NCBI RefSeq assembly: GCF_024713975.1
Contig: NC_091102.1
Span: forward strand, 10,483,001-10,547,000
Reading direction: 5' to 3'
Length of the DNA stretch: 64,000 nt
Origin: Paralichthys olivaceus
Taxonomy: Eukaryota > Chordata > Actinopteri > Pleuronectiformes > Paralichthyidae
Shown: in pieces, positions 13,083 through 63,951 of the stretch
How the letters are laid out: each line of letters starts with the position of its first letter
How positions within the stretch are numbered: the first letter of the stretch is position 1
Notes under the pieces: generated by a model
What the model was told of the DNA's origin: nothing
Seen by the model: only the letters and a program-made list of their open reading frames with translations
Databases searched by the model: none
Position numbers and translations under genes: made by a program

Positions 13083-14337
13083 TCATAGCAGCTCCTTGCC
13101 GCCCCTCTCCCTGTTCATCTTCTTCATTTTCATCCTCCTGTTCTGGAACCAGATCTTCACTTGTCTCTCGGTTAAACTCAGTATGCGGGCGACCTCGTAG
13201 CGCCGGTCTCGTGTCAGATACATGTTGAACAGGAACTCCTTCTCCAGCTCTAAAGTCTGATATTTTGTGTACGGGCATCGCTTCTTTCTCGTGGAGCGTG
13301 CGTGAATCCAGTTTGCTGCAGGGTTGTCTGGGGGGAAAGACAAGAGGCACATGTTGAAATTCAACTTAAATAATTTCAGTAAATGGGTTTCAAAGTGAAT
13401 TTGGGTGATATTGAATACAAGGAATAAAAAGCAAGATGAGAATTCTGATTTATTTTTGGGGATAAACGATGCGTAAAGAAGACTTTTACGTGTTTTTTCC
13501 AATGGGTTCTTGTAAAATGAAGAAAGTGAATGTTCCCTAAATCCAGCCCTCAGGTAAAATCTTATCGAAATGCAGCACTGTATCTATTTTGGGTGTCCTG
13601 TAACATGAAAGAGTTTAAGATCCCCCTGTAATAACCCATGTAGGGTGGGTTTTTTCTCCCCTTCCCGAGCCGCGGTATAGCTCGAGACATTTTTATAGGT
13701 TAGTAAAACCTCCAGTTTTACACACCCAGCTCATACAGTTCTTGGGGCTGTAAATCACTACAGGCTATTTCGTTTACTTACTTGGGTCAAGTTGTTGTTG
13801 TTTCTCCTCTTTGGGCTCGCTGTGGCTCGACAGCTCGCTGCCACTGTGCTCTTTGCTCGGCTTCTCCGGACACTCCGACGCCGCACAAGCGAACTCCAGC
13901 GGCCGAGCCTCTGCCTCCAACGCGTCGCACTCCGCCGCAGCTTTGGGCGGCAGCACCTCGGGCTTTGTCCCGTACGAGCGGCTGCCGGCGTGAAATCCGG
14001 CGAACGAAACGTGGTTGGAGATGGGGTCCATCCAGGAGCGGACGCCCACGTATCTGCCGTCCGACGCGGGCAGATGCGGGGACTGGTGGTGGTGATGGTG
14101 GTGGTGCGCGTACGGATGATAAATTCCCTGCGGGTGAATCGAGGACCACGACGAGGGGAAGACGGCGGACTTTGGTGCAAAATTGCAAGAGGAGAAGTCT
14201 GCGTTGTCCCCGGCACCTGACGGCCTCGGGGTCACCGAGTGTGGAGCCTGGAGAAAGCGAGCGCCGTAAACATCCTCCGGCTCCTGCCCCATGATAGCGT
14301 CCACATAGCAGTTACTGAGAGTGCCACTGGAAGACAT
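13083..14337 (-). CDS. hoxd9a: Homeobox protein Hox-D9a
   Basis: Posterior-group Hox transcription factor. Exon 1 is 14337-13782 and exon 2 is 13327-13083 (stop included), giving 266 residues. The donor reads CCCAA/GTAAGT and the acceptor CCCCAG/ACAACC; joining restores DPNNPAANW, the Hox9 signature. The start at 14337 ([19 protein letters not shown]) is the conserved Hox9 N-terminus; an in-frame ATG seven codons upstream (14358) is less likely. Exon 1 carries a 7-histidine run and an acidic/serine-rich stretch before the splice. The homeodomain spans about residues 198-257 ([20 protein letters not shown] to RRMKMKKMN), with Trp48, Phe49 and Asn51 present; the reduced hexapeptide is ANW (W192). 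It lies 2.2 kb from hoxd10a on the same strand. No break is seen. Confidence 0.98.
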
Positions 14338-14437
14338 TTTTGATCTCTTCCTACTCATATAATAAGGGTTGCACTGTTACGGGAAGCTTCCCTCTATGAA
14401 CAATCATGGTATTTTTGCTTGGCCTGCATCTACAGGG

Positions 14438-16561: not shown

Positions 16562-18359
16562 TCACGAAAAGGTGAGATTTGAGGTCAGTTCACGGATGCG
16601 GTTTTCCCTGTTCATCTTCTTCAGCTTCATCCTGCGGTTCTGAAACCAGATCTTGACCTGCCTGTCAGTCAGGTTGACGCACCGGCTGATCTCTAGGCGG
16701 CGCTCTCGGGTCAGATACATATTGAAGAGAAACTCCTTCTCCAACTCCAAGGTCTGGTGCTTTGTGTAAGGGCATCTCTTCTTTCTCCCACTCTTCGCTG
16801 TTAACCAGTTGCTGGTCGGCGTGTCGCTCTTGCAATCTGTGGAGATTCACACACATTTATTTTTAGCCTCACCTGCTGCTTCACACCTCTCCTCATGGGA
16901 AATAACACAATATAACAACACCATCCCAGAATAATTCATATGCAGCGGATGTTATTAGTCACGACCGTGCCACCACTAATAAAAGAGAAATGAAATCAAA
17001 CCCCAACTGATCAAAGCGCACACGGGGGATTACACCTGTATACGTGCAGCTTGAAGGACGATGATAAAAAAAATCCATTAATTGGATTAAATATTAAATA
17101 TATTAACGTGTAATTAATGCAATGCTCAAAGTACTCCATTGGAAATTGAATTTCAAACACAGTGGTTTTTGATATGTTGCCAGGCTGCAGGAACTGAACT
17201 GTGCACTGTGGCTGCAAATGCACCAATTTATTAAAGAGCCTGCATTTTTAATTTACACCGCAGAGATTGATAATAGGATTACAAGTACAGCACGAGAGTC
17301 TAGAAATAACGCAATAGTACAATGCATTTTAAAATAAAGCATGCTATATCTATTTAAAAAAATACAATGTAAGAATTTAAATGTCTGAGTTAAAGGAAGG
17401 GGTCAGAGTCTGCATGCTGCATGGTAAAAACCATTCTCTGCTGCCTATAACTGCAACTTGAGAAAGACTCTCATTAAACATTACGACTTTCGGGGTTGTT
17501 TGTGTTTTATACTTGGTTTTATGATGCTCGAGCCTTCTCTCAACACAGCGCCACAAAGATAAAAGCATTCATTTGCAGCCAACCCACCTTTCCCTTCCTT
17601 CTGCTGCAGCAGCTCAGGACTGGATACCGGCGCCTCCATGTCCACGGAGCAGCTCTTCTCCTCCGAGCCAGACTTTGGATCCGGACTCTCTGCGGGTACC
17701 GGGGTCCTGGAGTTCTCGGGGTCGTGCCGCAAGTCCTCACTTTTCTTCTCGACCTCTGCAAAATTAGACGACGTGGAGGACGTGGAGGAAGTGGACTGCG
17801 GTTTTGGGGTGAGCCGGCTGAGCTGCATCAGTGTTGGGTTTGGACTCGGCGGCTCATGGCAGTAGTTGTCCTGGTGCTTCCCATTCGCGTAAGTTTGGCT
17901 CAGTCTGAAATAGCCCGGCACCGGGATCTCGGGGCCGTCGACGGGACAGGACTCGGGGGCGACATTGGGATAAGCAGGGACTTCTGTCAGGCTGACTTTT
18001 TGCACTCTCTTATCGGAGTACATGCAGCAGTTACTCTCTTCCTTTATGCTCTGTGAGAATGAACAGTTTGTCATCTGACTTGACGGCTCTATCCTGCAGG
18101 GTCTGCTCGGATCAGTCCAGTTATCTAGTTGAGGTATGTAGGAGTGCACGTTCATGCCCATGTTTTGGTGGTTGAGCTCCCCTCTCTTGCCGAAAGACGG
18201 CAGGAGTCCACAGGTTTGCATTCCGTAAGTTCCCATGTCTGAGCCGGACGGCATGTACATGTTGCTGCTGCCGGAGTAGAAGCTGTCCGTCCTGCACGCA
18301 CCAATTAAAGAGTCCACCAAGAAGGTGTTGGCCGCAGGAGAGCTACCGGGGAAGGACAT
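16562..18359 (-). CDS. hoxd10a: Homeobox protein Hox-D10a
   Basis: Posterior-group (Abd-B-like) Hox transcription factor. Exon 1 is 18359-17588 and exon 2 is 16836-16562 (stop included), 348 residues. The donor reads GGGAAAG/GTGGGT and the acceptor CCACAG/ATTGCAAG; the split codon gives Asp258 and the [20 protein letters not shown] junction typical of Hox10. The N-terminus [20 protein letters not shown] is conserved in Hox10. A serine/threonine run ([10 protein letters not shown]) lies near residue 205. The homeodomain spans about 274-333, with [17 protein letters not shown], and the tail [13 protein letters not shown] is the Hox10 C-terminus. Frames on the opposite strand of exon 1 are shadows. 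Spacing to hoxd11a is about 3.7 kb. Confidence 0.98.
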
Positions 18360-22012: not shown

Positions 22013-23519
22013 TCAGAATAAAGGGTTCCCGGTGAAATACTGTAGGCGGTCGCGGTTGAGCTTTTTCTCCTTCATGCGTCTGTTCTGAAACCAGATCTTC
22101 ACCTGTCGATCCGACAGGTTTAACATCCTGGACAGTTGCAGCCGCTTCTCCTTGTTAATGTACACGTTGAAGAAAAACTCTCGTTCAAGTTCTCGGATCT
22201 GGTATTTGGTGTAAGGGCACCTCTTCTTCCTCGACTTGGTCGATGAACCTGCAGGAAGAAAATAAGTAAAAGCGTGAAAACAATGTTGACAGAAATGAAC
22301 ATCATGTCATAAAATGTTGTAAATTTGAACTTAAGTCCACTTAACGTGTTGCAGATAGTTATACACCAAATGGTGAACAAAAAGGCCCCTCTCTTTCTTT
22401 GCACACACACTCAGACACACACACATACACTCAGACACGCACACACACAGACTCAGGCTACACACACCACCACTAGAGAAATTAGCATCAAAATGAACTT
22501 ATATTGCACTGGATTTTACGCATACGTTGCTGTTTGGAGATTTATTCCCCTTTAAGTGTCGCTATATCTGCACAACGCTGCCTATAAGCAAATTATATTA
22601 ACTTTAATAAAAAGATGCATATTTTATTTCCAGTTCTCTGCCAATAAAAATCAATTCCACCAACCTCTTACTGTTACTAGACGCCAGGTAACCTTTAAAC
22701 CACGGTTACTTGACTGTTTCCCACAGTAAATACCTTTACAAGCGTAAAGTAGATCTTATTGGGATATAAAAAGCGTTTGCATGCTTATAAAGGAGCCACA
22801 TAACCGTGCACGGCCACAGTAGAGGACGCATAGTGCGGTGCAGACACTGCTATTGTCTCTGGGTGAACACCTTGTAGGACAAAAGAGGAGGAAAAGGGTG
22901 ACTTACTCTGTTGGCTGCTCTTGTCGCCGCAGTTGGAGGATGAGTCCTCGTCCACGCTCCCGCTCGGGTCCGCTTTGTCCTGCTCGAGTTTGGTTAAAGA
23001 CTCGGTGTCGTTGTTGTTGTTCGCAGCATCTCCGGGCGCAGCAGAGTCTGTCTTTTGTTTGGGGAGCTCCGCGCCGAGCTTGTCCGAGTTAGGGGTGTCC
23101 AGGAACTGGTCGAAGCCCTGGGGGAGCACCCCGTTGCGGCCGACACCGGTGAAGAAATTGCACGGCGAGCTCGTCCCTCCGTGGTGGCCGTACAAGGACT
23201 CGTTTTTGAAGATCACTTCCGCCCTGCTGCCCGAGGACTGGATCAAGTCCCGGTGCATTATCTCGTCCGTTGAGTAGTACGACGCGTAATTGCCCCTGTA
23301 GTGCCATTTGCTAGGATGGTCCAGTCCATAATCCCTGAAAGCGACCTCTCGTACAGGTTGGACTTGGGCTATGTTGGGGGAATAGGGGAAATTGACCTGG
23401 CACGAAGTGGTCTGCGGTAGAAACGACGAGACTGATGTGAAATCGGGCGTCGAAACGTAATAAGTGCAGCTCGGTAAATACATATTTGACGCACAGCTGC
23501 GATCATCGTATTCCGTCAT
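22013..23519 (-). CDS. hoxd11a: Homeobox protein Hox-D11a
   Basis: Abd-B-like Hox transcription factor of the posterior trunk and fin. Exon 1 is 23519-22907 and exon 2 is 22248-22013 (stop included), 282 residues. The donor reads CAACAGA/GTAAGT and the acceptor TCCTGCAG/GTTCATCG; the split codon is Ser205. The N-terminus [20 protein letters not shown] and the block [20 protein letters not shown] are Hox11 hallmarks. A run of four Asn and acidic/serine stretches precede the junction. The homeodomain is about residues 210-269 ([20 protein letters not shown], then [18 protein letters not shown]), and the protein ends [10 protein letters not shown] as in other Hox11 proteins. Splice sites, frame and key residues are all intact. 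Confidence 0.98.
22402..22453. repeat. (CA)n microsatellite in hoxd11a intron
   Basis: Impure CA run interspersed with CAGA, inside the single hoxd11a intron. Confidence 0.85.
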
Positions 23520-24087
23520 ATCTCTGCTTCCCTTTCCCTCTGTGCAAAAAGGGAGGAGAGGAATTGGCAGCTCGACTGTGCTAAACTTTGTCCATCTATA
23601 GCACCGCGGGCGCGTGGAAAGACCCCGCCAGGGAGAAAAAATCGGAAACGTAGGCAGACCTGCAATACATCTTGATCGATTCTTGAGGTAATTGTGTCAT
23701 GTGATCCAGCTAAGAAATTACCATACATAATATCAGTCATTAAAACCTGTCCGGAGAAACTCATGTGAGCGCATACGAGAGACTTCATTGGCTCCCTGGC
23801 TGCAGAGGAAACTCCTCTCCAGCCTTCTTGCCCTATAGCTCAGGGAAGAAAAAAAGAAAATTTGTGAACCACTGCTGGAATATTTGATTTAAAGCTCTAC
23901 AGCAGCACCTTCTCCATCTTGTAATGACATGTAATGACAGCCGCACAGGCGCATTCCGCTAGAGTGGCGCTCTTTTGGGGAGGAGGCATGTTTGTTTGCG
24001 GCAACAGTTAGACTACAAACATTGGAGTTGACCTCCCTGTAAGACGCAACGCTTGAGGAGAATGGCACCAAGGCCAATGTGGGTGAA

Positions 24088-29033: not shown

Positions 29034-30307
29034 TCAGTACGCGGAGAAAGCCTGGTCGCGCATCATGAGCCGCTTCTTCTTCATCCTGCGGTTCTGAAAC
29101 CATATTTTCACTTGCTGGTCGCTCAGGTCCAGTCTGTTCGACAGCTCCTTGCGCTTCTGTCTGTTGATGAACTCGTTCATCATGAATTCGTTCTCAAGTT
29201 CAGCCAGTTGTGGCTTCGAGTAAGGCTTCCTCTTCTTGCGGATTTTCACTTGTGAAGAGCACCACGGGGCACCTTGAGAGGAGAGGCAGAGTTTTTCACT
29301 TTTAAATTAACACCAACTTCAGCAACAGTTAGAAGCTCTGTAGGGAAATAAAAGCTCCCAGTGGCACTGCTTATACATAGAGCTGCTAGTGCCTTACAAA
29401 AATACGGTTTAATATTGCTAACCCATGGAAGCACGCCTACAGTGTGAATGTGAAAACAGGGCTATTGCAATGAGCAGTAGCATCTATTTGGACATTCTAT
29501 GAATATTAATATATATAATAAAACTGATGCTATAGGAGAAATAAAGTGACCCTACTATATGGCCTAAATATAATTCTTATTTAACAATATTTCCATGATG
29601 ATGACGCGTAATACTGGATAAAGAGTTGTTGCCATAAAATAAGACACAAACATATCAAATCATTCTTGTAATATCATGGTGGGTTTTTTAAACAGTATTA
29701 TTAATCGTAGAAATGGTAGAAAACATTAAATGATCACAAATGCTACTTAACCTTCAGTAAAACTGGTCCTGGAGCATGTGTTCCTCGCTGGAGGCTGCAG
29801 AGGGTCGTGCTCCTGCTTGGTGCCGTTCACGTTTAACGGGCCTGCTGACTCCGCATCTGTATGGGCCGCAACACCGTGAGGCCGGCCGTGCACATCCGAG
29901 TATCCGCCGTCACTCAGCGCCCCGTGCTCCCCGGCGTAAACCTCCTCCCTCCTCCCAGCCTCCTCCGCCTTATGCCCAACGTCCTGGAAGCACCGCACGG
30001 GCTCCTCCAAATGCGCCCTGATGTGTCCGCCGGAGGAGTTCAGAGACACGGAGCTGGACAGAAACGGCGGACAGTAGCCTCCGAAGGCGCGGCTCTGTGC
30101 GGCTGCTGGCTGTGCTCCTCTGGACGTGCACGAACTTGAGGAAGTCCACGGGAGCGTGCACACCTCTCTCCTGTTGTACGGGAGCTGATGCAGCCCGGGT
30201 ATGTGGGCTCCATTGCCCCGCAAGTTGGAGAAATATAGCGAATCAGGTGGAGCAAAATTCAGCAGAGAACCAACGTAGCTGGGATTTAACGGATTCCGCT
30301 CACACAT
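29034..30307 (-). CDS. hoxd12a: Homeobox protein Hox-D12a
   Basis: Abd-B-like Hox transcription factor, the most posterior intact Hox gene here. Exon 1 is 30307-29752 and exon 2 is 29272-29034 (stop included), 264 residues. The donor reads ACTGAAG/GTTAAG and the acceptor CTCTCAAG/GTGCCC; joining gives [20 protein letters not shown] chose ATG 30307 because it gives [20 protein letters not shown], the conserved Hox12 start; in-frame ATGs lie two codons (30313) and twelve codons (30343) upstream. [12 protein letters not shown] is a second Hox12 hallmark. The homeodomain is about residues 196-255, with [20 protein letters not shown] and [15 protein letters not shown], and the tail is RDQAFSAY. 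The gene next to it should be hoxd13a, but only a relic is present. Confidence 0.97.
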
Positions 30308-30404
30308 TTCCATGGAGCTCCCCTCAAACGCGTCTTCTTGCAAAGCCTTTTAGCAACTCCTGAAGAATAAAGCCTGGGTAATTGTTGATTTGTTAATACG
30401 GCGT

Positions 30405-30410: not shown

Positions 30411-31782
30411 ATATGCAAAATATGTTGTTGCGCTCCACCCTTGCTCCAACACTGCAAAGCAAATACTCCATGAGGAAATATTTGGGTATTGTGGGTGGAG
30501 GATGGAGGTTCAATTCAAACCCTGCGTGCAGTGCTCTATATTTACACTGAAAAAAAACGCGTCACATCTAAAGAATTCTTAGGCTTCTGTCAGTTTCAGG
30601 GTCACATGACCACGGGTTTTATTTTGGTGCTGTGACATGAGCAATAACAATGTGACTATAGACTGAGCCATAGGCTGCAGGGAGAAATGCAGGGCCATGC
30701 ATGCACAAGAGAACAGTCCTAAGGCAATGAATAACCCACACCCTAAATATGACACATTTAGAATGATTATAAAATAATGATTTGCTCTTAAAAATGTTTT
30801 CTTGCATAGATAGAAATGAAGCGAACCAATGCACAATGCAATGCCTTAAATACACCATATGATACACTAACCACGTTACAATGCATATTTGCATTGTAAT
30901 ACATCATCACAATCATAAAAATCCCCCTTTCCCCCCCACACACTGGAGGACCACTGCTTATTTCAAAGAACACTGGAGCCCTGGATGTGCGCACTGTTCC
31001 TGCGGACCCTCCCCAGTAAACAATGCGGCCTTTATGCTCGAGTTCGCCACGGAGCTCCATGAGCTGAAGACAACACACATGATGAAATATCCGTATTTCG
31101 AAAAAAATACACATTCAAGGAGAAAAAAAATGAATAAACCTCCAGTGTGAAGCTCTGAGGAAGATTTAGTTTTAGGAATCATGTAAATATCTTGTTTACA
31201 AACTGTCCTATATATATATAAGGCTTCTGTAAAAACTAAATGCACTTATCTTAAAGTCATATTTGATATTAAAACTTATCTGTCCGAGAAAAAGGGAATT
31301 TTACTATTTTCGGGTGTAAAGAAAAGGATCTTTACAAGCAGTGATATCGATAAAACCCTCTGTATGACAACGCTACTGAAAAACTACAACCGTGAATGTA
31401 TGCGGTCAAATGTACCTTCAAATACAAATACTTGGAACTAGAAGAAAAAGAATTATCTCCCACAACAAAATGATTCCACTCATTCACGCTCATGTTGAAT
31501 TTAAGCACTAATTATCAAAACTACATACAAGCACAGTATCATATTCCAAGAGCATTTTACCAACCCTGTTACGCACTTCTCCAGCGGGGATTTAACAATG
31601 TATATGGTTAGGTGTTTAACTGCGTGTTTTATACTGAGTCATAAGAATAATCCTGTAGTATTACCATTACCACATAGTACAGCAGAAACATGGAAACTTT
31701 ATAGTCCGAAATTCTATTTAATAATCGATTTAATTGGATCTTTACATTTTTACAATTTACTTTACAGATTAGGATTAAGTAA
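30411..31782. other. hoxd12a upstream DNA
   Basis: AT-rich intergenic sequence. No gene or known repeat recognised. Confidence 0.45.
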
Positions 31783-31934
31783 GAGTTGAGTGTGTGTGTG
31801 TGTGTGTGTGTGTGTCTACTCGTTTGTCGTCACCTCTGTAGGTATGTGAATTCTAAGATTATGGTTAGGTGAAATTGGTCATGGTTGAGGTTATGGGACG
31901 AGGTCTGTGTTATAGGCGGTACACAGTGAATGAA

Positions 31935-31978
<44 letters not shown>

Positions 31979-32233
31979 CATATTTTTCTATAGTTATGAG
32001 GCCACATTTTGGTTCAAAACCATCATCACGACATTTTGATGTGAGGACATTTTGGCTGTTCCTCAGAAATTTAAATTCAGGGCTGTTTAAGGGTTAAGAC
32101 TTGGTTTTAGGGTTAGCGTTAGGGTTAAGCATTTAGTTGTGATGGTTAAGGTTAGGGTAAGGTGATGCATTATCCCAATGAGTGTCCTGAGAACTATAGA
32201 GAGACAAGTGTCTGTGTGTGTGTTGACACTGAG
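31783..32233. repeat. Teleost low-complexity repeat with GT runs and telomere-like GGGTTA
   Basis: Two GT runs (about 31788-31815 and 31941-31974) flank unique DNA. Then GAGGACATTTTGGCTG and TTAGGGTTAGCGTTAGGGTT stretches lead to a third GT patch. This combination is a familiar dispersed fish repeat; I cannot assign its class. Confidence 0.6.
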
Positions 32234-33964
32234 AAGCTGTTGTATTTTCATTGGGCCTCCATGTGTAGTAGTGCAGTGGGAACATTATATTTAGGAGATG
32301 CTCATCCTGTCCGCTTCCCGAGAAACTAAACCTAATCTGTATCTAACAGATCCCTTACGACTTCATCTTGAGTTCAAACAGGTTTATTTGGGTTATTAAT
32401 GTGATAAAAACCAGTCTAAGGGCACATCTCTTCGGGGGTGCAGGCCAAGAAAGGCGACTGAACCTGCTCGTCTTTCCTGAAGCAAGCTCTATAGCATATG
32501 CCCAGATGTAGAACTCCTGAAAAAATCCTGAGGATATCAGACATAACACCCACCACCAGAAAAGACAAGAGATTTAAATCATACTCAGGGTTAAAACTAT
32601 AGACACGTTTCTTCATTACTGTTTGATGCAATCATGTGAGCTGTTGCTGCTGTAACCCAATAGGGGGCAGTATAGGTTCATATATAACCTCTTTTCATTG
32701 TTTGACAGTGGTTTAAATTCTACAATAAAAAATCTTCATCAGTTTCATCACTGGAGCTGAGCACATTAATGCTCGATGATAAAAATGTGTGTGTGTGTCA
32801 GAATGAGAGACCACGTGATAATGTATGTGATGCTAACATTAACCGTCCAGTTTAAAAAAAAACTATTTCCACAGGTAAACAGACGAATAACATACAAAGC
32901 ACAAAAATTAAACTAGATATGAAATTAATTAATGAAAATAAAAAGTAGGTGGTCAGGGCACTTATTCCTTTGTGTTACTGGCTACCATCCTTTAGTAGAC
33001 CTGTCTTAGTCCCATGCTGTGATTGTAGCAGTCAAGGTTAAGACGAGTAGTCTATACGGAAAACATCCTTACACAAACATTAGCTGCAGATCACTCCTGT
33101 TAGTAAGCTACTATATTTTAAAACGAAGAAAACCAACAGAAAAAACAGACAGAGCAACCGCAATCATTTAAGGGAGATGACCAAAACATTTAAATGTAGA
33201 AATTAAACAGAATCATATAGAAATAATAAGTATTTGAATCTGGAATGGTTTATTAAAACGGGTCTCCAATTAAAAGATGAAAGTGAAAAATAAAAACAAA
33301 GATAACGACATTTTCTATAAAGTGAACGAGAGAGAGCTGAGAGCCAATAAAAAACGTTTAACAAGCGCTCTTCTATTTATTTGGATCAGCCTTTATATAT
33401 ATATATTGTTTAAAAAGGAGTTTAAAACATATTTAGATTATGGTCAACCGTGTTTTTAATATAAAGGCCAAACTACTCCAATTTGAACCATGTCTGAATC
33501 GCCTGTTGCCCCTAAGGTAAAACATCCGAGGTATAGGAATTATTTTTAAAATCTTTATGGAGATAACGAATGAGGAAAAAATGCATATAGGTACAGTTTT
33601 TACATTTTAAAGTAATAAATAGGAAATTGTTTTGCTAAGTTACCTCGGTGGGTCATTGTAATGTGTTTCCACGCGTTATGAAATATCCACAAACCTTGTT
33701 GGGTTATCTACCAGCTCTCCACAGTTTTTCTATTCAAAAATATAAATGAATAAGTTTGTATTTGGGACAAACGCGTTTGAAAGTGTTTGCTCCGTCTTCA
33801 GTGTTGTGTCCAAAAAGCAGCCAGACTTCCACAATCAGAGAAAGAAGTTTTAGTGCAGACTTTTAGTGTCTTTTACTGCTCTGCGTCCTTCACGTTTAGT
33901 GCGTCAGGAGCCAAACTGAGGAGCTGCAGTCTGCGGCTGTTTTCCCAGGCCCTTTGAAGGAAGC
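32234..33964. other. Intergenic DNA 3' of the hoxd13a relic
   Basis: AT-rich, with a CTCF-like core at 32656-32672. No gene recognised. Confidence 0.4.
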
Positions 33965-34037
33965 TATCCGCCGTCTATTGTCCTTGGTAATAAACTTGCT
34001 GCTTCCCTCGTTCAAGTTCTCTGGTCTGAGAAAATGT
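33965..34037 (-). pseudogene. hoxd13a: Hox-D13a homeobox relic
   Basis: On the minus strand, reading 34037 to 34008 gives TFSQTRELER, which aligns with TKLQLKELER of Hox13 homeodomains. Ten bases follow where an intact gene needs fifteen, so the frame shifts. Then 33997 to 33965 reads KFITKDNRRRI, against the Hox13-specific KFITKDKRRRI. About 16 of 21 aligned residues agree, and the order is right. After this the recognition helix (NLSERQVTIWFQNRR) is missing. Strand and position between hoxd12a and evx2 are those of hoxd13a. No exon 1 relic was recognised. I infer that hoxd13a was lost by decay. The match is short, so a formal alignment should confirm it. Confidence 0.75.
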
Positions 34038-36232
34038 TGCCTTGAAATCTCAGCACATTATGGAGCCAGTGGAGGACAAAGTGTTTGGCACAGGATGTAC
34101 AGCTCACCTCAGACTCTCCTGGTGTTGAACAGGTTTCACAAAGAGAATCACTCTCAGATGGTGAGTGGAGGATAAATATGTGATGATCTTCTGGCTCCTG
34201 TTTATGTCCATTTGGCTCAAAGGGAACATTTGAAGTCCTGGATGAAAATCAAACAGATCTCCTCACAGGTAACAGACGATAGAAAGAAGAGACGCTGCTT
34301 TAGATCCTTTAACGAAACAGGGTTTACATCTTTTTGTTTCTTGCTTCAGCTTCGCTTATATTTCTTTGTAAAGTTAAATTCCAGAAAACGCGTAACTGGC
34401 TTTGTTGGGATAAAGAAAGGGACCAATAAACGACGGCATCGAAACAGAATCACTTCGAATGCAAGTAAAGGTTTGGAGACAATAATAATGAGATTGTATT
34501 CAAGAAAACTGACGAATCGTCAGCTTCAATCTTAGAAACTAAAGAGCAAGGCACAGGCCCAAATTTGACACGCTCTTTTTAATGTATTTTTGAGCTTGGA
34601 GACAGTTTGCAAATGAAGGAGCAATATCAAGCTTCACAGAAAAAAACACAACGTGCAAATGTATTGAAAGAGAGGAAGATTTCGTTAAATTGCATTAACC
34701 CTAACCCGTAGACTATTTATAAATTCAATTGAGTTTATATTCAGGAACCATGCGTTAACACCGTCTCCACGTGGATTCGAAGGTTAATCCTTTTTAATGC
34801 AACTATCAGTGCAGATAAACGTTATCAGTTTAGCTCATGTTGCACAGTAATTATAAAAAAATGCAACGTAAACTTGGTAAAATGCGGTAGGCCGATATAT
34901 TGTTTGGTTTAAGTTAAACTTAAACCTGACTCCAGTATATATAAAATGAATGCGTATAGAAACGCATTCCCGTTAAACTATAACTGCAGAGACACAAAGC
35001 TATAACTTACATTGTTTTGATCCCTGCACAATACAGAACAGTAAGAGAGTAATAATCTCTCAATTATTTAGTGTTTGCTCGAGTTAAGTAAAATATCTTC
35101 ACACCAAAGTTACACAGATCTGTGTTTTTTCCTCAGTAAAAAAGTTCCTGCAATTTCTTCTTCAATTACACACGAGAAAACAGAAAATAGAGTAAGTCAG
35201 GTATAGTCAGGAATAAAGTGCATTTGCGTTGCAGTAACTTCAGTGATGATAATAAAATAATAAAACTTGTATGATTGTAACATTTTAGAAGTGTATTTTA
35301 ATTCTTATATGAGGAGCAGCACCTTTAAACCATTCATTCAAATGTGAATAACATCTGGAACTTTTACATTTTTCCACTGATGATGTTGGACAGATCATAT
35401 GATATTTTCTACCTTCCAGACAATCTTCCACTAAGTATTTGAGATTCTTGCAGATCTGACTCAGTGTTGCTCCCTCTCTATTAAAGACAGAATGTATTTT
35501 TCCAAAACACTGTAGGTGAGGATAAATCGTGCTGGTCCCTATCCTTCTGTTGAGCTGAATGCATTTACACGAAGACACCACTAGATGGCCTTCTTAGTCA
35601 AGGAAAGAAGACTGCAGGGAAGCAAAAGACGCAAAGGCCAACCTGAACTGAGAGATCAGTGACATCACAGAATAATGAGCTATTTATATCTGAAGTAAAG
35701 ACTGATCTCTAATTCTGGATTCACGTATAGACTTATCAATGAAAAAGGTAAAAGAGAGTTAAATAGGTCACAGTGTGGTTTCACTGATGCAGATACATTG
35801 GATACAGTACACAACCCTTCAGCATGATAGTTTCATAGCATTAGACTTTTTGAACCTGCTTTCAGATGAGCAATGATTTGTCCCTGACCCATTGGAAACT
35901 CCTTCAGTGTTACTCAAGGTAACATTTTTCACAAGAATGTTGAATGAAATTGAAGTTGTTGATTGTAAAGACACTACTCACATCTATTCTTTCCTCAAAC
36001 GCTCTCACTCTGTTGGAGGTTTGAGCCACAGAGAGAGGATCAATCTGCATGAGCACAAAGCACCGCTGCAGCTCAAACAGGTTGAGTAGAGGCGAAACTC
36101 ATCAAAAGAAAAAAACACTTCGTCTGTATAATTTAAATAACCAAAACAGGATAAAATATGCTAAATGATTTCTTCCTTCACTGTGTCCAATTTACCTCCA
36201 ATTTATTTTTATTCTATTCTACAGATTGAGCG
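34038..36232. other. Intergenic DNA 5' of the hoxd13a relic
   Basis: No gene recognised. The 98-codon minus-strand frame at 35285-35581 resembles neither Hox13 exon 1 nor another family I know. A CTCF-like core CCACTAGATGGC lies at 35576-35592. Confidence 0.4.
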
Positions 36233-37090
36233 ATACAGCACCGATCATCATGGCAGCACAGTCTATTCCAGCATAGTGTTCATTGCAACTCATACAAACA
36301 CTGTTAACAGTGGGATCAGCTCTCTACAAACACGTCATTAGAAGCATGGACACCTGCTTACGTTATGCTACAGTTACACAGATAACTCCTCGTTACAACT
36401 GTGGCGAGCACAAAAGCATCTCACGATGCACAACACGTCGGGTGTTCATGGGAATGAGCTGCAACAGCAGGCGATCCCGTCAGGTTCAACTGGTCTCAGC
36501 CAAAAACAGAAATGTGAGGCTGCAGTGGACACAGGCTCTAAGGGCTGGACAGATAAAGATAGAATAGCCTCGTCTGCTGGATCTACAGAGAATGCAGATG
36601 GTACAGTCAGAATTTGGCATCAACAAGAGGAACCCATGGACCCAACCTGCCTGGTGTCAACAGTCCAGGCTGCTCCTGGTGGTTTTGGTAGTGTAATGGT
36701 GTGGGGAATGTTTTCTTGGCACACTTTGGGCCTCTGATTATAATAAGTCATTGTCTGAACACAGTCTGAGTATTGTTGCTGTTGACCATTATGGACACAG
36801 ATTACTATCTTTCAACGGCCACCTCCAGCATGATGATGCACCATGAGACAAACAAGTCGTTTCAAACATGACAATCAGATCAGTATCCTTCACTGGCCTC
36901 CACAGTCACCAGATATGAAGCCAGCAGATGATCATGGGGGGGGGGGGAATTCACAGCACGAATGTGCAAATGACAAATCCACAGAATCACCAGTGTGATC
37001 ATGTCACGAAGAACGGAGGCTGTTATAAGAGCTGAAGGGAGGAACAACCCAGTCTTAGTATGGTGTTCTTAATAAAGTGCTCAGGGAGTG
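36233..37090 (+). mobile_element. Degenerate Tc1-like DNA transposon, copy 1
   Basis: The DNA follows the layout of a common fish Tc1/mariner family: CATCATGGCAGCACA near the start, AACAGTCCAGGCTGCT and GTGTAATGGTGTGGGGAATG in the middle, GGCCTCCACAGTCACCAGAT at the catalytic region, and an AATAAAGTG end. The transposase is broken into several frames and interrupted by a run of 12 G (36936-36947). It cannot be active. Confidence 0.75.
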
Positions 37091-38251
37091 AACAACTTCA
37101 CAGTCATACACTCACTCATACATATTCAACAATCTACCAACCAGACCTTAATAAACTGAAATAAATAGTATTGGTCGGATGCATGAAACAATGTGAAATG
37201 AGGAGTTCTTTAAAAAATGTGCCTTTAAGAACGTATCAATGCTGGAAGTCAGTTGTATATAAAGATGGCTCATTTACATCTTCTTGCTGACCAAACTACA
37301 TTAACCATAGCCTATTGGACGGATGCCCAAATATCTTCACTTGACTTAAAACTAAATTAATCTATTTTGATGGCTGTAGCATCGATACCATGTTTTCATT
37401 ATTATCTCTCTTTAATAATGAAATATTTACGCTTATAATCTGTTTCTGATGAGCAATTAAAAAACAAGGACTTGAGTTTGTTGAATGTTCAATACAGATC
37501 GATATACTTTCAACCAATATTTATGTTGAAGCTAGTTTACTGTGCAGTATGTCATTAATTATCGTTCCTCCAGTCACCATGAAGTTACATTTCTACATAT
37601 TATATATCAGAATTTAAGCAAGAATTAGCTTTGTGGTTGGGACCAGGGTTGGGACCAGAGAATGGGTCAGGGCCGTGACAGGGACCAGCGCCCCTTACAA
37701 CCTCTTACCAGAAACAGTCTTATATCCTCTGTATATGATTATTGATGAATTTGACTGCTTGTTCCACAAAAGAGACGTTAACGTTCGAGGGAGAAATGTG
37801 TGTTGGAGGATATTTGCTTGACTGACAAGTGTCTAATCCAGTTCAAGTCAGCCATGACGGTTGCTGCTCGTTTGTCCAGCCTCAGCTCAGCCTTGCAGGC
37901 TCCCTCCTCGGCTAATCCTCCCCAACAGTGTCTGATATCATGAAGTTATTCCATCAATGTTTTGCTGCTTTTCAGATCATTTGAATGGCTTGTACACAAT
38001 CTTGTGAATACTGATCTTATTACTATTGTTGTGGCTTTGGTATCTTGTTAGTATTTCTCAACCTGACTCCAGGGATTTTAGAGCATTTTCACAAAGAACA
38101 GCTATTAGAAAATTAGCTGGCTGGCAAACATGAACACATTTACAGAACACATTGTACTTACACATAAATAAATGGAATGGAAAATGGTCAGTATTAACAT
38201 TGGGCTTTTCTAGTCTGGATGACAACTCAAAGTGCTTGTTCAGTTTATGAC
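37091..38251. other. Intergenic DNA
   Basis: No gene or known repeat recognised. Confidence 0.4.
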
Positions 38252-38422
38252 ACACACACACTTACAGGGCATCTATGGGCAGCACTTTTTCTATGAGGGG
38301 CAATTTGTGGTTCAGTGTCTTGCCCAAGGACACTTAGGCATGCAAATGGGGAAGACTGGGATCAGACTGCAGACCTCCTGGTTAGGTAAGTACGACGCTC
38401 TACCCCCTCAGCCACAGAGGAA
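38252..38422. repeat. Dispersed teleost repeat
   Basis: Contains TTCAGTGTCTTGCCCAAGGA, then GGGATCAGACTGCAGACC and GCTCTACCCCCTCAGCCACA. This is a widespread fish interspersed repeat; its class is not assigned here. Confidence 0.6.
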
Positions 38423-40044
38423 AATGTGAAGGTATGTATTTCTAAAAAATCTATGGCTTCTTTGGAAAGGCACTTTGAGAAAAAAGGCAGCTTTCCAGTT
38501 TTTTGTGCTTCATATTGACTTTTACAGATGTCAATGTAGGTTCTTATGTACAGTATTTTTTTCAATTTCATTGTATTTTACAGTTAAATAATCTCATGAG
38601 AAAAACAGGCTCTTGGGATGTTAATCAAGAAAGAGAGCCAGGATCTAGTTTCTCAATTCATTAGCTTATGCATATAGAAACATACAATAACAGAGAATTA
38701 TCCAGTGGGAATAGTGAAACATAAGACACCCTCTGACTTTTGCTCTTTCCCTCCTCCCCCAGTTTAACAGTCTCAATCTATAGCCTCGGCCCCTGAGTGA
38801 TGAGACGAGTCATTTAAAAATAATCCCAGAAACTTTTCAATCTATCCCATTGCAGGTTTGTGTATTTATAGACCCAGCTGTTCTTAAAGGTCCACCCAGT
38901 GAGTGCTACGGTCGTTCTTTAGTGCAACTTCATGTGAAGAGCTTGTAATGCATCTGTGCCATGAATCGGCCTGAAGAACGGCCTGAGAGCCACTTCAAGT
39001 CATCCATGAGAAACTCATGCACTCAAGTATAAATGGATCAGAGGAGAAGGGAAGACATCAGCACTGATAGTGTGTGATGGATGGACCATGGGGGTTTTGA
39101 GTTACTCAACAAAAAAACATTTATCCTCTGACATTAGACCTTTACAGGAGACATTTGAATTGTCAAAGAATCTCAGGCGTAACTAATAACATTATCCAAG
39201 TGTCCCAATAATACATAGGTCCGGGAAACACCTGAAACTTGAACAGAGAAGTCAAACTCAAACATTGTGAATGTTATTATTTACACCTGGGATTCTATTA
39301 CTGTGACTTAAAATATAAAAGCTCATTTTAATTTATTTTTTGAGAAAAAAGGAAATCACATAGATGACAAAAGGGAATATTATGAGTTTGGAGATCTTAT
39401 AATCCAACAATCTTTATATTGTGCTGCATATGATTCAGAAAACCATTTCATATCTTTAATGAAACTAAACTGTTGAAACAAAAACACATTAACACATTCT
39501 CTCTGCATGGTTGAGCTGAGCAGAAAAGAGATTTCACACAAAAGGTAAAGACAAATATTATGCAGCACACCTGCAGCATAAGATTGTCCCTTAAGATGAA
39601 ACTGTTCATGGGAATTCATCAGCTGCACATGTATGCAAATGACCTAATTATATTAAATGCAAATTCCTAAAGCTCTTAGAGAGGAGAATGCATATCAATG
39701 TGTTTCTTAAATTTCATATTGTTTAATTCAAGACCCCAAATAATCCATTGTGTTCAGTAAACTTAACTAACTTTGATAATAAATAGTGAATTTTGTATTA
39801 ACTGTTTTTTTCATGTAGCTGAGCTGTAAGACATGAATGTCCTTACAAGCCTAAAACTAAAACGGCAGTTTGCATAAAAAGCTTCTTCAACAAAATGACT
39901 AAGTAAGTTGAATTGTATTATACTATTATAGGATTAGCTCCATGAAGTGTGTGGTTATTATAATGCAGGTTCCCGTACATCCTATTGCTCACCAGTATTA
40001 CACAAAATGACAAAAAGAACAAGGCTTTTTAGCTCAACAGCAGC
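38423..40044. other. Intergenic DNA
   Basis: AT-rich; no gene or known repeat recognised. Confidence 0.4.
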
Positions 40045-40410
40045 TTAAAGGTCCAGTGTGTAAAAATTAGGTAAAAGGGAGCTATTAGAAGAAATTTAAT
40101 GAAAAACATTCCTAGTTTTGTTTTCACTAGTGTTTCATCTGAATATCTCAAATTTTGTTTTCTTGACCCTAGAATGGGCACTTTATATTAAAAAATGTAC
40201 TTTATACTCAGAGTGTGTTCTGTCTACAGAGCCCACCATGTTTTTTACAGTAGCCCAGACAAGATAAACTAAACCTTTTGAGTATTAATGACAACTGAAG
40301 CTACCTCAGGTTCACTCATGTTTGGAAGAGGAGGGTGAGGTGAGGGGTATTCAGTTGCAACATGCAACTTCACCACTAGATGTCACTCTATTCTCGCACT
40401 GAACCTTTAA
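40045..40410. mobile_element. MITE with TTAAAGGTCCAGTGTG-type termini
   Basis: The left end TTAAAGGTCCAGTGTGTAA and the right end CGCACTGAACCTTTAA form an imperfect terminal inverted repeat around about 335 bases. This is a very common non-autonomous DNA transposon of teleosts. No clear target duplication is visible. Confidence 0.75.
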
Positions 40411-41273
40411 AATCATTAACCAGCTCCCAAATTAAAATATATATTCTTAATCTATTTTACTTCCGTGTTCATGTACTCAGTGTTAAGGTCAGGACATCAG
40501 GTGAAGCCCACATCCATTCAACAGACACCATCAATGACTGCAATTACCATAGAAATCCTGCAGGAGGCGCCAGAGGACGTACAAGAGGAGGATCTGCAGG
40601 GATCGTCTCCTCACATGGAAAAACCAGGAGTCCATGCATGGCTGTGATGTCTTTACATATAAGAGCCTCAGTTAGAATTAACCAGCTGCATAAACATGTA
40701 CCAGTCCTTTTCGATAAATACAAACATTAGCACGAAGCTAACAGAGGGTGCATGACTCAGGGGAAATATTTTGCAGTAATAATCTAAAAAATTTGTAAAA
40801 GATTGTGTTAAAAATGTATAATGCGAGAATATAAAATGTTAAATCTCAGTGGCATTCGTTTATTCGTTTAAATCAAGAGCCCATCGAAAAAAATGTGAAA
40901 CAGAAAAAAATAAATAAAATGAAATAAGGATTACGGTTAAAAAGATTTGTATGTTTTAGTTACTTTAAAAGATGACTTATTTCTATATGCATTCAAAATA
41001 CACAACTGTGTGCTGTGGTGTGGAGATGTGTAATAATGGTCCCATTATCACCACATCAAAATGTGCATTTGACGAATAATGCAAAAAAAGAAATGCACAA
41101 AAAAAACCCACAAGGTCCTAAAAACTCAAGAAGTATTTTCACTTTTAATGTTTTATCACAATCGTGCACGTTAATGTGCGTAAATGGCAAGGATGGTAAA
41201 AACTACGAGAAATAAAAAGACAAAAGAGGAATAAATAAATAAAAGAGGGGGAGATTAGAGAGGGGGAGGGCAC

Positions 41274-41307
<34 letters not shown>

Positions 41308-41740
41308 GAGGGGAAACAATAGAGAATCAAAGCATGATAATATTCCTAAATGAAGAGGGAAATGTTGCAGCGCTCATTTTATTAATCAGACTGTCAATTT
41401 CACCCAAGAGGCCAAACCCAGGAGCAGAGAGAGACAGAGTCAGATCAGCGCAGGGACGCGCACCTCGCTCCTCACTCCTCTCCTCCTTCTCCACTTGGAT
41501 ATTATTCGTCTGACCGAAGGCCGCCTCCATCATCAAGTGACAGCCCTCTCCTATTTATTTGCTTATAAACCTGTTACAATAAATGATCATTGGAGGAACG
41601 TCAGCCGAGCATTTTAACAACGAAACAGCAGCGGGCACTTGTTTTTTGATGAATGACATTTCGCTGCAGGAGGGGAGGATGCTCGCCTCATCCTGAGCTC
41701 GTCGGGTGCATTCAGATTCTTTCATTTTCGGCGTCTTGCT
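40411..41740. other. evx2 upstream region
   Basis: Contains a GA-rich tract (41271-41307) and a GC-richer stretch toward the promoter, with a TGCGTAAA motif at 41177. No other gene recognised. Confidence 0.45.
41271..41307. repeat. (GA)n tract upstream of evx2
   Basis: Near-pure GA run about 650 bases before the evx2 ATG. Confidence 0.9.
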
Positions 41741-41928: not shown

Positions 41929-44148
41929 ATGATGGAGAGGATAAGAAAAGAGATGATATTGATGGAGAGAGGGCTGCACAGTCCCGTCGCTGCGGGGAAG
42001 AGGCTCGCAGACGCGCCGGGGAACTCGGTGCTGGAGGCCCTGGAAAACTCCCAGCACGGCGGACGGCTGAGCCCGAGAATAACTTCGGCTTCCCTCCATG
42101 GAAATCTCGGGGACATCCCGGGGAAAGGCAAGTTTGAGATCGACAGCCTGTTCGGGACGCACCACGGCAGCGAGAACAGCTCTTCGGCGGAGATTTCGTC
42201 GTCGGAGAGCCGCAAGAAAATGAGCCTTTACTCCGAAGTTTCGCAAGAATCAGACGTTAACAGTGATGTGGAGGTGGGATGCCCTGCGCACCGCTCCCCG
42301 AGCCAGCACAAGGAAAACAACAAAGGTACAGACCTCATTTTATTCCGAGTTCATTTTTATTTTTGTATTTGAATGTTGCGGAGGATATTATTATTATTGT
42401 AATACTGCTCATTGTCACAAATAAAGACAGCAATAAAGCAAAAATTATTATAACACTGATTCTAACCACCTGAAGCTAAATTATTTTCATTATTATAATT
42501 CATCACTGTAAGACAACTACTTTTATTTTTATTATACAAATTGTATTTGTAGACAAAAACATTATTATTGCTACAACTACTTTACTATATAATACAGAAT
42601 TGTTATGAATAAAAATGTTAGTCTCGACTGTCATTTTAAAATAGTTGCATTTGTTTTATTCTTATTCGTATCAAGCTATGAAATAAACTTAAGGCCGGCA
42701 CACCAGTAGCTCATTTTATTTGAAAATTATCAATAAAAATATCTTTGTTATCCTTTTATCTTTAGGGTTTTCAGACAGTAATTCCGGCTCATCCAGCTCG
42801 AACTCCCTCCAGAACATGAACGGTAACGGGTCCAACAACTCAAACAGCGACCAGGTCAGGAGGTACCGCACCGCGTTCACCAGGGAGCAGATCGGGCGAC
42901 TGGAGAAGGAGTTTTACCGGGAAAATTACGTGTCGAGACCGAGGAGGTGTGAACTGGCCGCAGCGCTAAATCTGCCCGAAACTACTATAAAGGTATGAAT
43001 CTCCATTATTCCTGTGCAACGTGTAGCCTGGCGTGTGCATGTGCAATGAATGGTGCAGGTGTAAAAAAAAAAAGAAGTTATTTGAAAATAATGACACTGA
43101 AAACATAGTCAAGACTATTATTTCTACTCATGAAATGGTGCAGTGAGATTTTATGGTTCTATCTTGTGCAACAATTAATGTTTTATATTTTGCTCGCTCC
43201 ATCGCATGGTAATCAATTCTAGTGTGAGGCTGCAATTAATTATTGGCTATGCTTTTTATTTAAAATAAATTATGAACTGCAAAATGTTTAATATTTTACT
43301 GACTGGATTCGATTGTAAGATTGTAACTCCAGCAGCATGTGAGAGCGGATCATTTTTACGCACAATGGGTATTTATAAATTAAAGGAAATTGAGTATTTA
43401 CAAAGAATATTTAGAACCAGTGCAGGGATGAGTGTGTGTTTTGCATCATCACACTGAACCTCCTCAGGTCTAAATTTAGAGCCTGGAAACAACATGGCAG
43501 CTTCAATATGGGCCTTGTTTTGACTGTGTGCAGGTCTGGTTCCAGAACAGGCGGATGAAGGATAAGAGGCAGCGCCTGGCGATGTCCTGGCCTCATCCAG
43601 CAGACCCCAGCTTCTACACTTACATGATGACGCACGCCGCAGCTACAGGGAGTCTACCGTACCCTTTCCACTCGCACATGCCTCTACACTACTACCCGCA
43701 CGTCGGTGTCACAGCAGCGGCAGCCGCAGCCGCCGCCACCAGCGCCGCCTCGTCACCTTTCGCCACCTCCATCCGGCCCCTCGACACCTTCCGGGCACTC
43801 TCCCACCCTTACTCGCGGCCGGAGCTCCTCTGCAGCTTCAGGCACCCGGGACTCTACCAGTCACCCGCAGGCCTGAACAGCTCGGCGGCGGCGTCTGCGG
43901 CTGCAGCGGCCGCGGCTGCAGCGGCGGCGGTCAGCGCCCCGTCGGCCGCGGGGCCCTGCTCTTGCCTGAGCTGCCACAGCAGCCAGGCGGCGAGCGCGCT
44001 GGGCGCCAGGAGCGCCAGCGCTGACTTTACGTGCACAGCCTCGGGGCCACGATCCGAGAGTGGATTTTTGCCGTATTCCGCCGCAGTCCTCAGCAAGACT
44101 TCAGTCCCGTCACCAGACCAACGAGAAGAGTCGTCACTTAACAGATAA
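41929..44148 (+). CDS. evx2: Even-skipped homeobox protein Evx2
   Basis: Nuclear homeodomain repressor of the even-skipped family, expressed in posterior structures and spinal interneurons in other vertebrates. Exons are 41929-42325, 42766-42992 and 43534-44148 (stop included), 412 residues. All junctions have GT/AG and keep frame; the second intron splits the homeobox after codon 46, as in other Evx genes. The start [19 protein letters not shown] is conserved. The homeodomain is about residues 163-222 ([20 protein letters not shown], then [15 protein letters not shown]). Exon 3 adds the conserved [20 protein letters not shown] block, two alanine tracts and the conserved end [15 protein letters not shown]. 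It is divergent from the Hox genes, as usual. No break is seen. Confidence 0.98.
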
Positions 44149-55600: not shown

Positions 55601-55647
55601 ATTTTTTAAACAGTAAAAGACTGGACTTAACCGTCATTAAAGCAAGT
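52611..55647. other. evx2-lnpa intergenic DNA, lnpa side
   Basis: Contains GCTAAC/GTTAGC-rich sequence near 53000-53160 and a CTCF-like core at 53603-53619. No gene recognised. Confidence 0.4.
53603..53619 (+). promoter_or_regulatory. CTCF-like core motif
   Basis: CCACCAGGGGGTAGCTC is a close match to the forward CTCF core (CCACCAGGGGGC). Predicted by eye only. Confidence 0.4.
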
Positions 55648-56306
55648 GTCTCCTGTCCCTGCAGCTACCTACTGTCCCTGCAGCTTTCTACTGTCTTTGC
55701 AGCTATCTACTCTCCCTGCTGCAGCTCTTGTCCCCCTGCAGCTACTGTATGTATGTTTGTACATTTTTATTACATTTTGTAAAGAATACTTGCACTATTT
55801 TCTATTTTTATATATTTCTTCTATTTCTTTTAATACTATTTTACTTTTTAATATTTGTATGCCGGGAGACTGAAAAACAAAGTAAGAATTTCATTACATG
55901 CTGTAAACTGTGTTTATCTGCTGTGTATATGACAATAAACATCTTGAATCTGTATGTCTTGTCCCCCTGCAGCTGTCTCCTGTCCCTTCTGCAGCTCTTG
56001 TCCCCCTGCAGCTGTCTCCTGTCCCTGCTGCAGCTCTTGTCCCCCTGCAGCTGTCTCCTGTCCCTGCTGCAGCTTTTGTCCCCCTGCAGCTGTGTCCTGT
56101 CCCTGCTGCAGCTCTTCCCCCTGCAGCTGTGTCCTGTCCCTGCTGCAGCTCTTGTCCCCCTGCAGCTGTCTCCTGTCCCTGCTGCAGCTCTTGTCCCCCT
56201 GCAGCTGTCTCCTGTCCCTGCTGCAGCTTTTGTCCCCCTGCAGCTGTCTCCTGTCCCCCTGCAGCTCTTGTCACCCTGCAGCTATGTCCTGTCCCCCTGC
56301 AGCTCC
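55648..56306. repeat. 39-bp minisatellite, split by an insertion
   Basis: From 55959 to about 56306 the unit CTTGTCCCCCTGCAGCTGTC plus TCCTGTCCCTGCTGCAGCT (39 bases) is repeated about nine times with small changes. Degenerate units also lie at 55648-55745, left of the insertion at 55753-55957. As 39 is a multiple of three, all frames stay open in places, giving false proteins on both strands. Each unit contains a pyrimidine run followed by CTGCAG, which resembles a splice acceptor. Confidence 0.9.
55753..55957 (+). mobile_element. Retroposon 3' fragment inserted in the minisatellite
   Basis: About 200 AT-rich bases ending in ATGACAATAAACATCTTGAA, the usual end of teleost L2/Rex-like LINE tails. 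CTGTATGT stands on both sides (55745-55752 and 55950-55957), as expected for a target-site duplication. Confidence 0.65.
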
Positions 56307-57215
56307 AGGACACTCCCCCATCTTGGCTTACACACCCTCTGTTAAAGAGTGTCCGGCTACAGGCTGCTCAAACCTGAACAGCTCAGCTCAGAAGGTAAAC
56401 TGCTTAATTCCTTAACATGTCCGTGCTAGTGCTCAACTTCTCCGTCTGGTTATTGGACTTTTCTCGCCAATTTAAATCCCGGGGGCTAACGTCAACTAAC
56501 TTAAGTTCGCACTTCTGTGTATGCTAGAGCTACAAGCTAGCAGTTAGCTCCCCACGGTTAGCTCGTGTTACAGCGGCGCTAACTCTTATCAGTTTGCTAA
56601 CTGCGTGTAAGAAGCAGGTTTAAAAGTGATGTAGGAAAGGTTAGCTGCATGTGGATGTGACATGGCTTCTCTGTGAGGTATCTGGCACCGTTAGGTTAGC
56701 TCTGCCTTCAGCAAACATCGCCATGAAATGTCAGCTGCCTCCGGACTCTAGTTTTGAAGTTTGCTAACTCAAGTTAGCAGCAGGTTGTTTAGCTTGGTCA
56801 CTCCACGCTGTTTGTGTTCAACCCAACAAAACACCACGACGGGTTGTGTTGTTATTATTGGTTTGTGTAAAGCAGTTGTTCATTGTGTGTGTTGCTGTGA
56901 GATCGTAACCCAGACACGAGTCCTACAGAGCACCTCACTGCAAGTTCTCATGTTTCAGTTTTATTGACATAATGTTGTGGTGTGGTGCTGTGACATCGAG
57001 CACACTTTACACCAAACTGTGTTTGAACTGTTAAGCTCATTAATAAACCTGTTTCTTATGACTGCAAATGGAGGGATGAAGGTTTAAAAACCTCAGCTAA
57101 TCTAAAGCAGCTTGATCAGAAACATTATATGAGTGTTGTGTTTCAGTGCTTCATTTTCAGCTTCATGCATGTAATCAGTAAAGTGTTTATTGAACCCATT
57201 CACTGTTGTCAACAG
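56307..57215 (+). promoter_or_regulatory. Probable lnpa promoter and 5' noncoding region
   Basis: The sequence between the minisatellite and the first coding exon. It is relatively CpG-rich near 56440-56720 with several GCTAAC motifs. Donor-like sites at 56394 (AAG/GTAAAC), 56605 and 56676 could end a noncoding first exon that joins the acceptor before 57216. Which is used cannot be decided here. Confidence 0.45.
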
Positions 57216-63200: not shown

Positions 63201-63951
63201 CTGTCCTCACTGGATGTCTTTCCTCCCCTACAGATATGCTCTCATATGTCAGCAGTGTCTGTCCCATAACGGAATGGCAATAAAAGAGGAGTTTGAATAC
63301 ATTGGTAAGACTTTAGGAAACACAAATTCAATTCAATTTTATTTGTACATCAGCAAACCACAACATGCATCTCGAGGCTCGAGGTTTTCATTATACAGTT
63401 CCCACAATGAGCCAACACTTTGTGACAGTGGAGAGATAAAAAAAAAAAAAAAAACAGGAACTGAGGATGGGCAGCCATCTGCCTCGACCGGTGAGGAGTT
63501 GAGGAGAGCAGAGAAATCACTGTCACTCTCCATCTCACACTGTGCACTGTAGCATTTGGCAGTGTAGTATATCATATGGTCTTAAATGCCTCTGCCACTA
63601 CCGACCCCTGTAAGCAAAAACGGCTGAAGATTGAATATGCAAACCAGTCGTACCCATCAATTTGAAACGTTTATGCATCTCGGGCATGTTTTGTCATTGG
63701 TTCATATTCATGTATATTTATCTATGTCTGTGTGAGAGTGTATTAGTGCGGTGACATTAACTACATGTCTTGTTTTATTCTTGTTGTTGTTTCAGCGTTC
63801 CGCTGTGCATATTGTTATTTTTTGAACCCTGCGAGAAAGACCAGGCCTCAGGCGCCCAGTCTCCCCATGGTCGCCGGAGAGCTGAAGATGTCATCAGAGG
63901 CATCCTTCCAATCGTCTGATGCTGATGTAGACGACGAGCAGTCTAGTTTAG
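57272..63951 (+). CDS. lnpa: Lunapark (ER three-way junction protein), partial at 3' end
   Basis: Lunapark stabilises three-way junctions of the tubular endoplasmic reticulum. Coding exons: 57272-57298 (exon from 57216), 57730-57771, 59237-59424, 59508-59566, 59656-59696, 60971-61054, 61136-61187, 61282-61506, 62561-62666, 63234-63304 and 63796-63951. All have GT/AG ends and join in frame, giving 350 residues; the C-terminus lies beyond the edge. MGAAVSRWR has Gly2 and Ser6, fitting N-myristoylation known for the family. Two membrane segments lie near residues 46-66 and 75-97, and a coiled coil at about 99-133 (TEKNNEKLEDLKVQKRKI). A proline-rich linker precedes the Cys4 zinc finger C280-x2-C283-x18-C302-x2-C305. 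The HoxDa linkage suggests the a-copy. Confidence 0.96.
57772..59236. other. lnpa intron
   Basis: 1.5-kb intron between the second and third coding exons. No gene or clear repeat recognised. Confidence 0.6.
59697..60970. other. lnpa intron
   Basis: 1.3-kb AT-rich intron; nothing recognised. Confidence 0.6.
61507..62560. other. lnpa intron
   Basis: 1.1-kb intron; nothing recognised. Confidence 0.6.
62667..63233. other. lnpa intron
   Basis: AT-rich intron; nothing recognised. Confidence 0.6.
63326..63495. repeat. Dispersed teleost repeat in lnpa intron
   Basis: AATTCAATTTTATTTGTACA at the start, CAGTTCCCACAATGAGCCAA and ACTTTGTGACAGTGGAGAGA inside, and GCCATCTGCCTCGACCGG at the end match a common fish interspersed repeat. 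It also holds a poly-A run. Class not assigned. Confidence 0.6.

Follow-up and report, generated by a model that had tools for sequence, protein, structure and literature searches.

The window, the whole stretch of DNA that was analysed, comprises 64,000 nucleotides (G000:C10:10483001-10547000) and belongs to a 588-Mb genome with 25 contigs, which we take to be that of a bony fish, judging from the Hox genes of the window. It contains four hoxd genes and evx2 (Table 1). The names hoxd9a to hoxd12a are assumed from cluster position and the usual gene order; exon 1 of hoxd12a is presumably the open frame listed, given its position and the features typical of this exon, and evx2 is assumed from its position and sequence. 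The start codons of hoxd12a (~30.31 kb) and evx2 (~41.93 kb) are 11.6 kb apart. Between these two genes lies the subject of this report, a relic spanning 34037-33965 of which ~73 bases are readable. It is separated from the former start codon by about 3.7 kb and from the latter by 7.9 kb, and it shares the minus strand with hoxd9a to hoxd12a.

Table 1. Features of the window and the group-13 homeoboxes found elsewhere in the genome
Feature	Contig	Position in the window	Strand	Remarks
hoxd9a	C10	13116..14376	minus	homeobox 13116-13289; exon 1 open frame 13774-14376
hoxd10a	C10	16613..18368	minus	homeobox 16613-16786; exon 1 open frame from 17484
hoxd11a	C10	22058..23696	minus	homeobox 22058-22231; exon 1 frame 22788-23696; DUF3528 E=5.8e-60
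hoxd12a homeobox (exon 2)	C10	29064..29240	minus	found by tblastn
hoxd12a exon 1 open frame	C10	29750..30349	minus	start codon ~30307-30313; no Pfam match
KFITKDNRRRI, relic core	C10	33965..33997	minus	DNA AAGTTTATTACCAAGGACAATAGACGGCGGATA; found by tblastn, nhmmer and the frameshift-aware profile
Frame-breaking gap	C10	33998..34007	minus	10 nt versus 15 nt in the genome's own hox13 genes, a 5-nt deficit
TFSQTRELER, helix 1 piece	C10	34008..34037	minus	DNA ACATTTTCTCAGACCAGAGAACTTGAACGA; frame differs from that of the core
evx2	C10	41929..44145	plus	start codon ~41929; homeobox split, 42858-42995 and 43528 onward
hoxa13a	C20			group-13 homeobox
hoxa13b	C13			group-13 homeobox
hoxc13a	C6			group-13 homeobox
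hoxb13a	C5			group-13 homeobox

Several other features of the neighbourhood can be mentioned. The hoxd12a-evx2 interval holds CTCF-like motifs at 32657 and 40373 and weaker ones at 35578, 40557 and 41625, all five in the plus orientation and with 1-2 mismatches to the consensus CCASYAGRKGGCRS; they are possible candidates for domain boundary sites. The same interval includes an imperfect inverted repeat at 39162-39301 (32-nt arms, 84% complementary, 76 nt apart). The sole Rfam match in the window at the gathering threshold is a mir-10 precursor at 1368-1442 (minus strand, 71.6 bits). Open frames on both strands of 55641-56364 are built of a repeated unit of the CSCLLSLLQLLSP type, which is probably a minisatellite rather than a gene. 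At ~61170-63552 (plus strand) there are exon-like open frames; one of them reads YRYALICQQCLSHNGMAIKEEFEYIG and resembles, as we presume, lunapark, the expected neighbour of evx2.

The two pieces of the relic, TFSQTRELER and KFITKDNRRRI, match Hox13 homeodomains from helix 1 to early helix 2 in the correct order, and the core KFITKDNRRRI corresponds to residues 23-33 of the 59-residue Hox13 query. The bases, the coordinates, the two peptides and the five-base deficit between them are exactly as the first-pass annotation had reported, and its statements that the frame is broken and that the relic lies between hoxd12a and evx2 in the orientation of the hoxd genes are borne out. The core differs from each of the four hox13 genes of the same genome at 8 of 33 nucleotides, with one nonsynonymous codon relative to three of them and two relative to hoxb13a; over the same 33 nucleotides these paralogs differ from one another at 4-9 positions.

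The significance of the match was estimated in several ways. The homeodomain of human HOXA13 (the query sequence was confirmed) compared with the window by tblastn places the relic at E=0.004, directly after six real homeobox exons, and the next match below it, among those listed, has E=1.9. An nhmmer search, with a DNA profile made from the four hox13 homeoboxes of the same genome, matches 34019-33957 at E=6e-6; outside homeobox exons this profile finds nothing better than E=1.8 (minus strand) and E=0.85 (plus strand). On the minus strand of 30501-41700, a frameshift-aware profile reaches 55.5. Simulated Markov sequences of 11.2 kb, which keep the neighbour-base frequencies of the interval, gave a mean of 31.6, a standard deviation of 3.5 and a maximum of 48.25; none of the 400 reached 55.5 (Gumbel p ~8e-5). 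The reversed whole window gave 41.5 and 35.75. The score remains 54.0 if frameshifts are forbidden, because it is carried by KFITKDNRRRI, and with the frameshift penalty varied from 8 to forbidden the relic exceeds the null by 7.2-8.1 standard deviations (150 simulations for each penalty). The TFSQTRELER half alone, judged in the 60 nt upstream of the core, gives a weaker result, as 13 of 2000 simulations of a 60-nt stretch reach its score, position ignored. Pfam finds no homeodomain in the 78-aa frame containing TFSQTRELER and no match for the joined relic peptide or the core-frame peptide. A plus-strand score of 37.5-39 near 35611 is within the null range (the largest of 60 simulations was 43).

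The possibility that intergenic DNA looks like a Hox13 homeodomain by chance would agree with the small size of the match (only ~21 codons, split over two frames) and with the silence of Pfam on either peptide, but the nhmmer and simulation results, the group-specific score described below, the expected place and strand, and the right order of the two pieces make it practically negligible.

Helix 3 is not detectable in the 160 nt downstream of the relic (p 0.44-0.93 against the four paralogs, 500 simulations each), and the recognition helix is thus gone, as had been claimed, as far as these tests reach; a likeness to helix 3 spotted there by eye (TGG...CCGCAGA) failed in the same test with the same p values. 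Upstream, a relic of the linker obtained p of 0.008 and 0.026 for two paralogs and 0.26 and 0.40 for the other two, and we do not claim it. Exon 1 was not detected on either strand of 30501-41700, where the best score (32.2) equals the simulated mean (32.2); this is a weak test, for its profile consists of the first exons of the four own hox13 genes, not of hoxd13a, and also misses exon 1 of hoxd12a (26.75). If a working Hox13 gene is recognised by an open homeodomain with the recognition helix WFQNRRVK, the relic is not one, its frame being broken. The first-pass annotation had attributed the loss to local decay and not to deletion of the interval. This holds for the interval as a whole; small local deletions may have contributed, since neither the latter half of the homeobox nor exon 1 was detected.

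Scored singly, the relic obtains 53-59 with the four group-13 homeodomains of the same genome, whereas the eight other homeodomains (hoxd12a, d11a, d10a, d9a, d4a, evx2 and two further ones of this genome, L001 and L003) give 21-33. The assignment to group 13 therefore rests on this comparison. When the HOXA13 homeodomain was compared with the whole genome (144 matches with E up to 10, from 150 scored among 193 candidates), four group-13 places appeared at 86-95% identity (Table 1), each on a chromosome that carries a HoxA, HoxB or HoxC cluster; the names of these four genes are assumed from the homeoboxes that lie near them and from the usual gene order. An intact hoxd13a elsewhere had been named as the finding that would contradict the reading of a dead gene. 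Among the candidates scored, no fifth group-13 homeobox is found in the 588 Mb, and the fifth best match is hoxd11a with 64% identity. The second HoxD cluster (C14) has hoxd9-like, hoxd4-like and hoxd11-like genes and no group-13 match, and a second posterior HoxC set is absent among the scored homeobox matches, which is consistent with a percomorph. The relic itself is absent from the 144 matches of this protein search (the same 150 of 193 candidates scored) because it is short. A DNA search with the 181 surrounding bases, which skips common words, returned the relic alone and no second copy.

These data bear on three further explanations. An assembly or sequencing error concealing an intact hoxd13a is conceivable insofar as one assembly was examined; however, small errors would not erase helix 3 together with exon 1, and the lack of a fifth group-13 homeobox among the scored candidates (150 of 193) speaks against an intact gene, so that we regard such an error as very improbable. 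Equally hard to accept is a fragment copied from another hox13 gene by gene conversion or retroposition. The four intact hox13 genes are possible donors, but the core is 8 of 33 nucleotides away from each of them, approximately their mutual distance, with the differences mostly at synonymous positions, and the relic has the place and the strand expected of hoxd13a. In some vertebrates hoxd14a is located between hoxd13 and evx2. A relic of hoxd14a would thus occupy the same place in the cluster, although the core reads as group 13, and we consider this origin improbable, if slightly less so than the two preceding ones.

We believe with considerable confidence that the relic is the eroded second exon of hoxd13a, that is, a unitary pseudogene. 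Its group, position, strand and broken frame agree with this, as does the lack of a second copy and, among the scored candidates, of a fifth group-13 homeobox; the identity rests on a single short stretch and its position, and it is the position that suggests orthology with hoxd13a of other fish. Presumably, hoxd13a formerly resided between hoxd12a and evx2 and was inactivated; its exons would then have been eroded where they stood by substitutions and indels, probably in this order, until ~73 bases from helix 1 to early helix 2 stayed readable. The relic yields no homeodomain, having lost its intact reading frame and the DNA-recognition helix. With hoxd13a dead, hoxd12a is the last HoxDa gene, in line with the earlier statement that it is the most posterior active one, and the group-13 work may have been left to hoxa13a, hoxa13b, hoxb13a and hoxc13a. 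According to the relevant passage of PMC5161576, adult fin-ray length shows no detectable difference in zebrafish hoxd13a mutants; therefore, a loss of this gene is plausible and could be tolerated.

The core seems hardly decayed while its flanks are unreadable. It is tempting to propose that a protein-coding exon has turned into a non-coding control element, its core kept by selection, though we consider this rather unlikely. Neutral decay was simulated on the genome's own hox13 homeoboxes with several divergences and indel loads, and we counted the runs in which a block of 11 codons held no more than one replacement and the overall score was at most 66. This combination appeared, per setting, in 0-2 of 500 runs with moderate indels, in 0-9 with more indels and in 1-19 where indels were very heavy; once divergence reached 0.3 substitutions per site, every setting gave 0-3 of 500. 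Thus no setting of the strict simulation fits well (at most 19/500), while a looser simulation based on the score alone fits ~0.3-0.5 substitutions per site. The statistic was selected after the sequence had been seen, and the own paralogs replaced the ancestral hoxd13a, which limits the weight of these counts. We regard them as a lead, not a result. They would be explained by a late death of the gene combined with deletion of its flanks or, alternatively, by a constraint that still acts on the core.

The latter possibility, a short cis-regulatory element retained after the gene death at the evx2-hoxd12a end of the HoxDa cluster, draws on the state of the 33-nt core, one amino acid away from three own hox13 genes (two from hoxb13a) amid unreadable flanks, and on the rarity of this joint pattern under uniform neutral decay. 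Passages of PMC8127814 place the split of the seahorse from other percomorphs at ~103.8 million years; if the present genome is that of a percomorph and the loss preceded the pipefish split, survival without constraint is harder still to explain. The literature passages gave no usable neutral rate for fish. Against retention, besides the post hoc choice of the statistic and the substitute for the ancestral gene, late inactivation with flanking deletions gives the same pattern, no Rfam family is found at the site, and the RNA fold is only mildly stable (z -2.31 on the minus strand, with 3 of 200 shuffles as stable, and z -1.49 on the plus strand, with 20 of 200). The retained element seems doubtful to us, and we prefer the reading of a dead hoxd13a exon.

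The loss of hoxd13a and relics of other fish hox genes are already known. The remark in the first-pass annotation that hoxd13a is missing in some percomorphs is borne out: the loss is published in PMC5168715, where passages place it before the percomorph radiation as a parsimony inference, and it is reported in a threadfin in PMC7574432. The gene and its absence from HoxDa are the same here; however, the passages of these two papers report the absence, and none of them a remaining piece, whereas a piece is present in our window. The remnant of hoxa7a in the Gulf pipefish (PMC5168715, in part) is likewise a dead hox gene recognisable at its place in the cluster, but it keeps a piece of exon 1 without a trace of the homeobox exon, while here a piece of the homeobox is kept and exon 1 is not found. 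According to passages of PMC2246111, hoxc1a pseudogenes occur in medaka and pufferfishes, and that of medaka is also a degenerate, frameshifted homeodomain at the orthologous place, although it concerns another gene of another cluster. The hoxb7a pseudogene of Astatotilapia burtoni (PMC2080641, in part) likewise shows a fish hox gene lost through local mutation; unlike the present relic, it is recent, with a stop codon near the start in an otherwise annotatable gene. No description of a hoxd13a relic appears in the titles, abstract beginnings and passages covered, although Figure 3 of PMC2080641 depicts pseudogenes and might include one, and the sequence strings of the relic had no match in the literature search.

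A physical remnant would turn the statement that hoxd13a is missing into the statement that hoxd13a died here. If the scrap can be traced across spiny-rayed fishes, shared or different breaks could indicate a single loss or multiple losses and give a rough date. Since hoxd13 is key to fin-to-limb questions, dating its loss in a very large group of fish would be useful, though unsurprising.

A minor observation concerns the second HoxD cluster. Its hoxd11b-like gene (L032 4068-3157; G000:C14, ~21612067-21611156, minus strand) has a homeobox interrupted by ~700 bases after ...FLTDR, and an open frame resembling exon 1 is located upstream of it. A GT...AG pair (GATCG/GTGCGT ... TTTTAAG/ACAGGTGAAA) would join the homeobox in frame to RQVKIWFQN, which looks like an intron gained within the homeobox.
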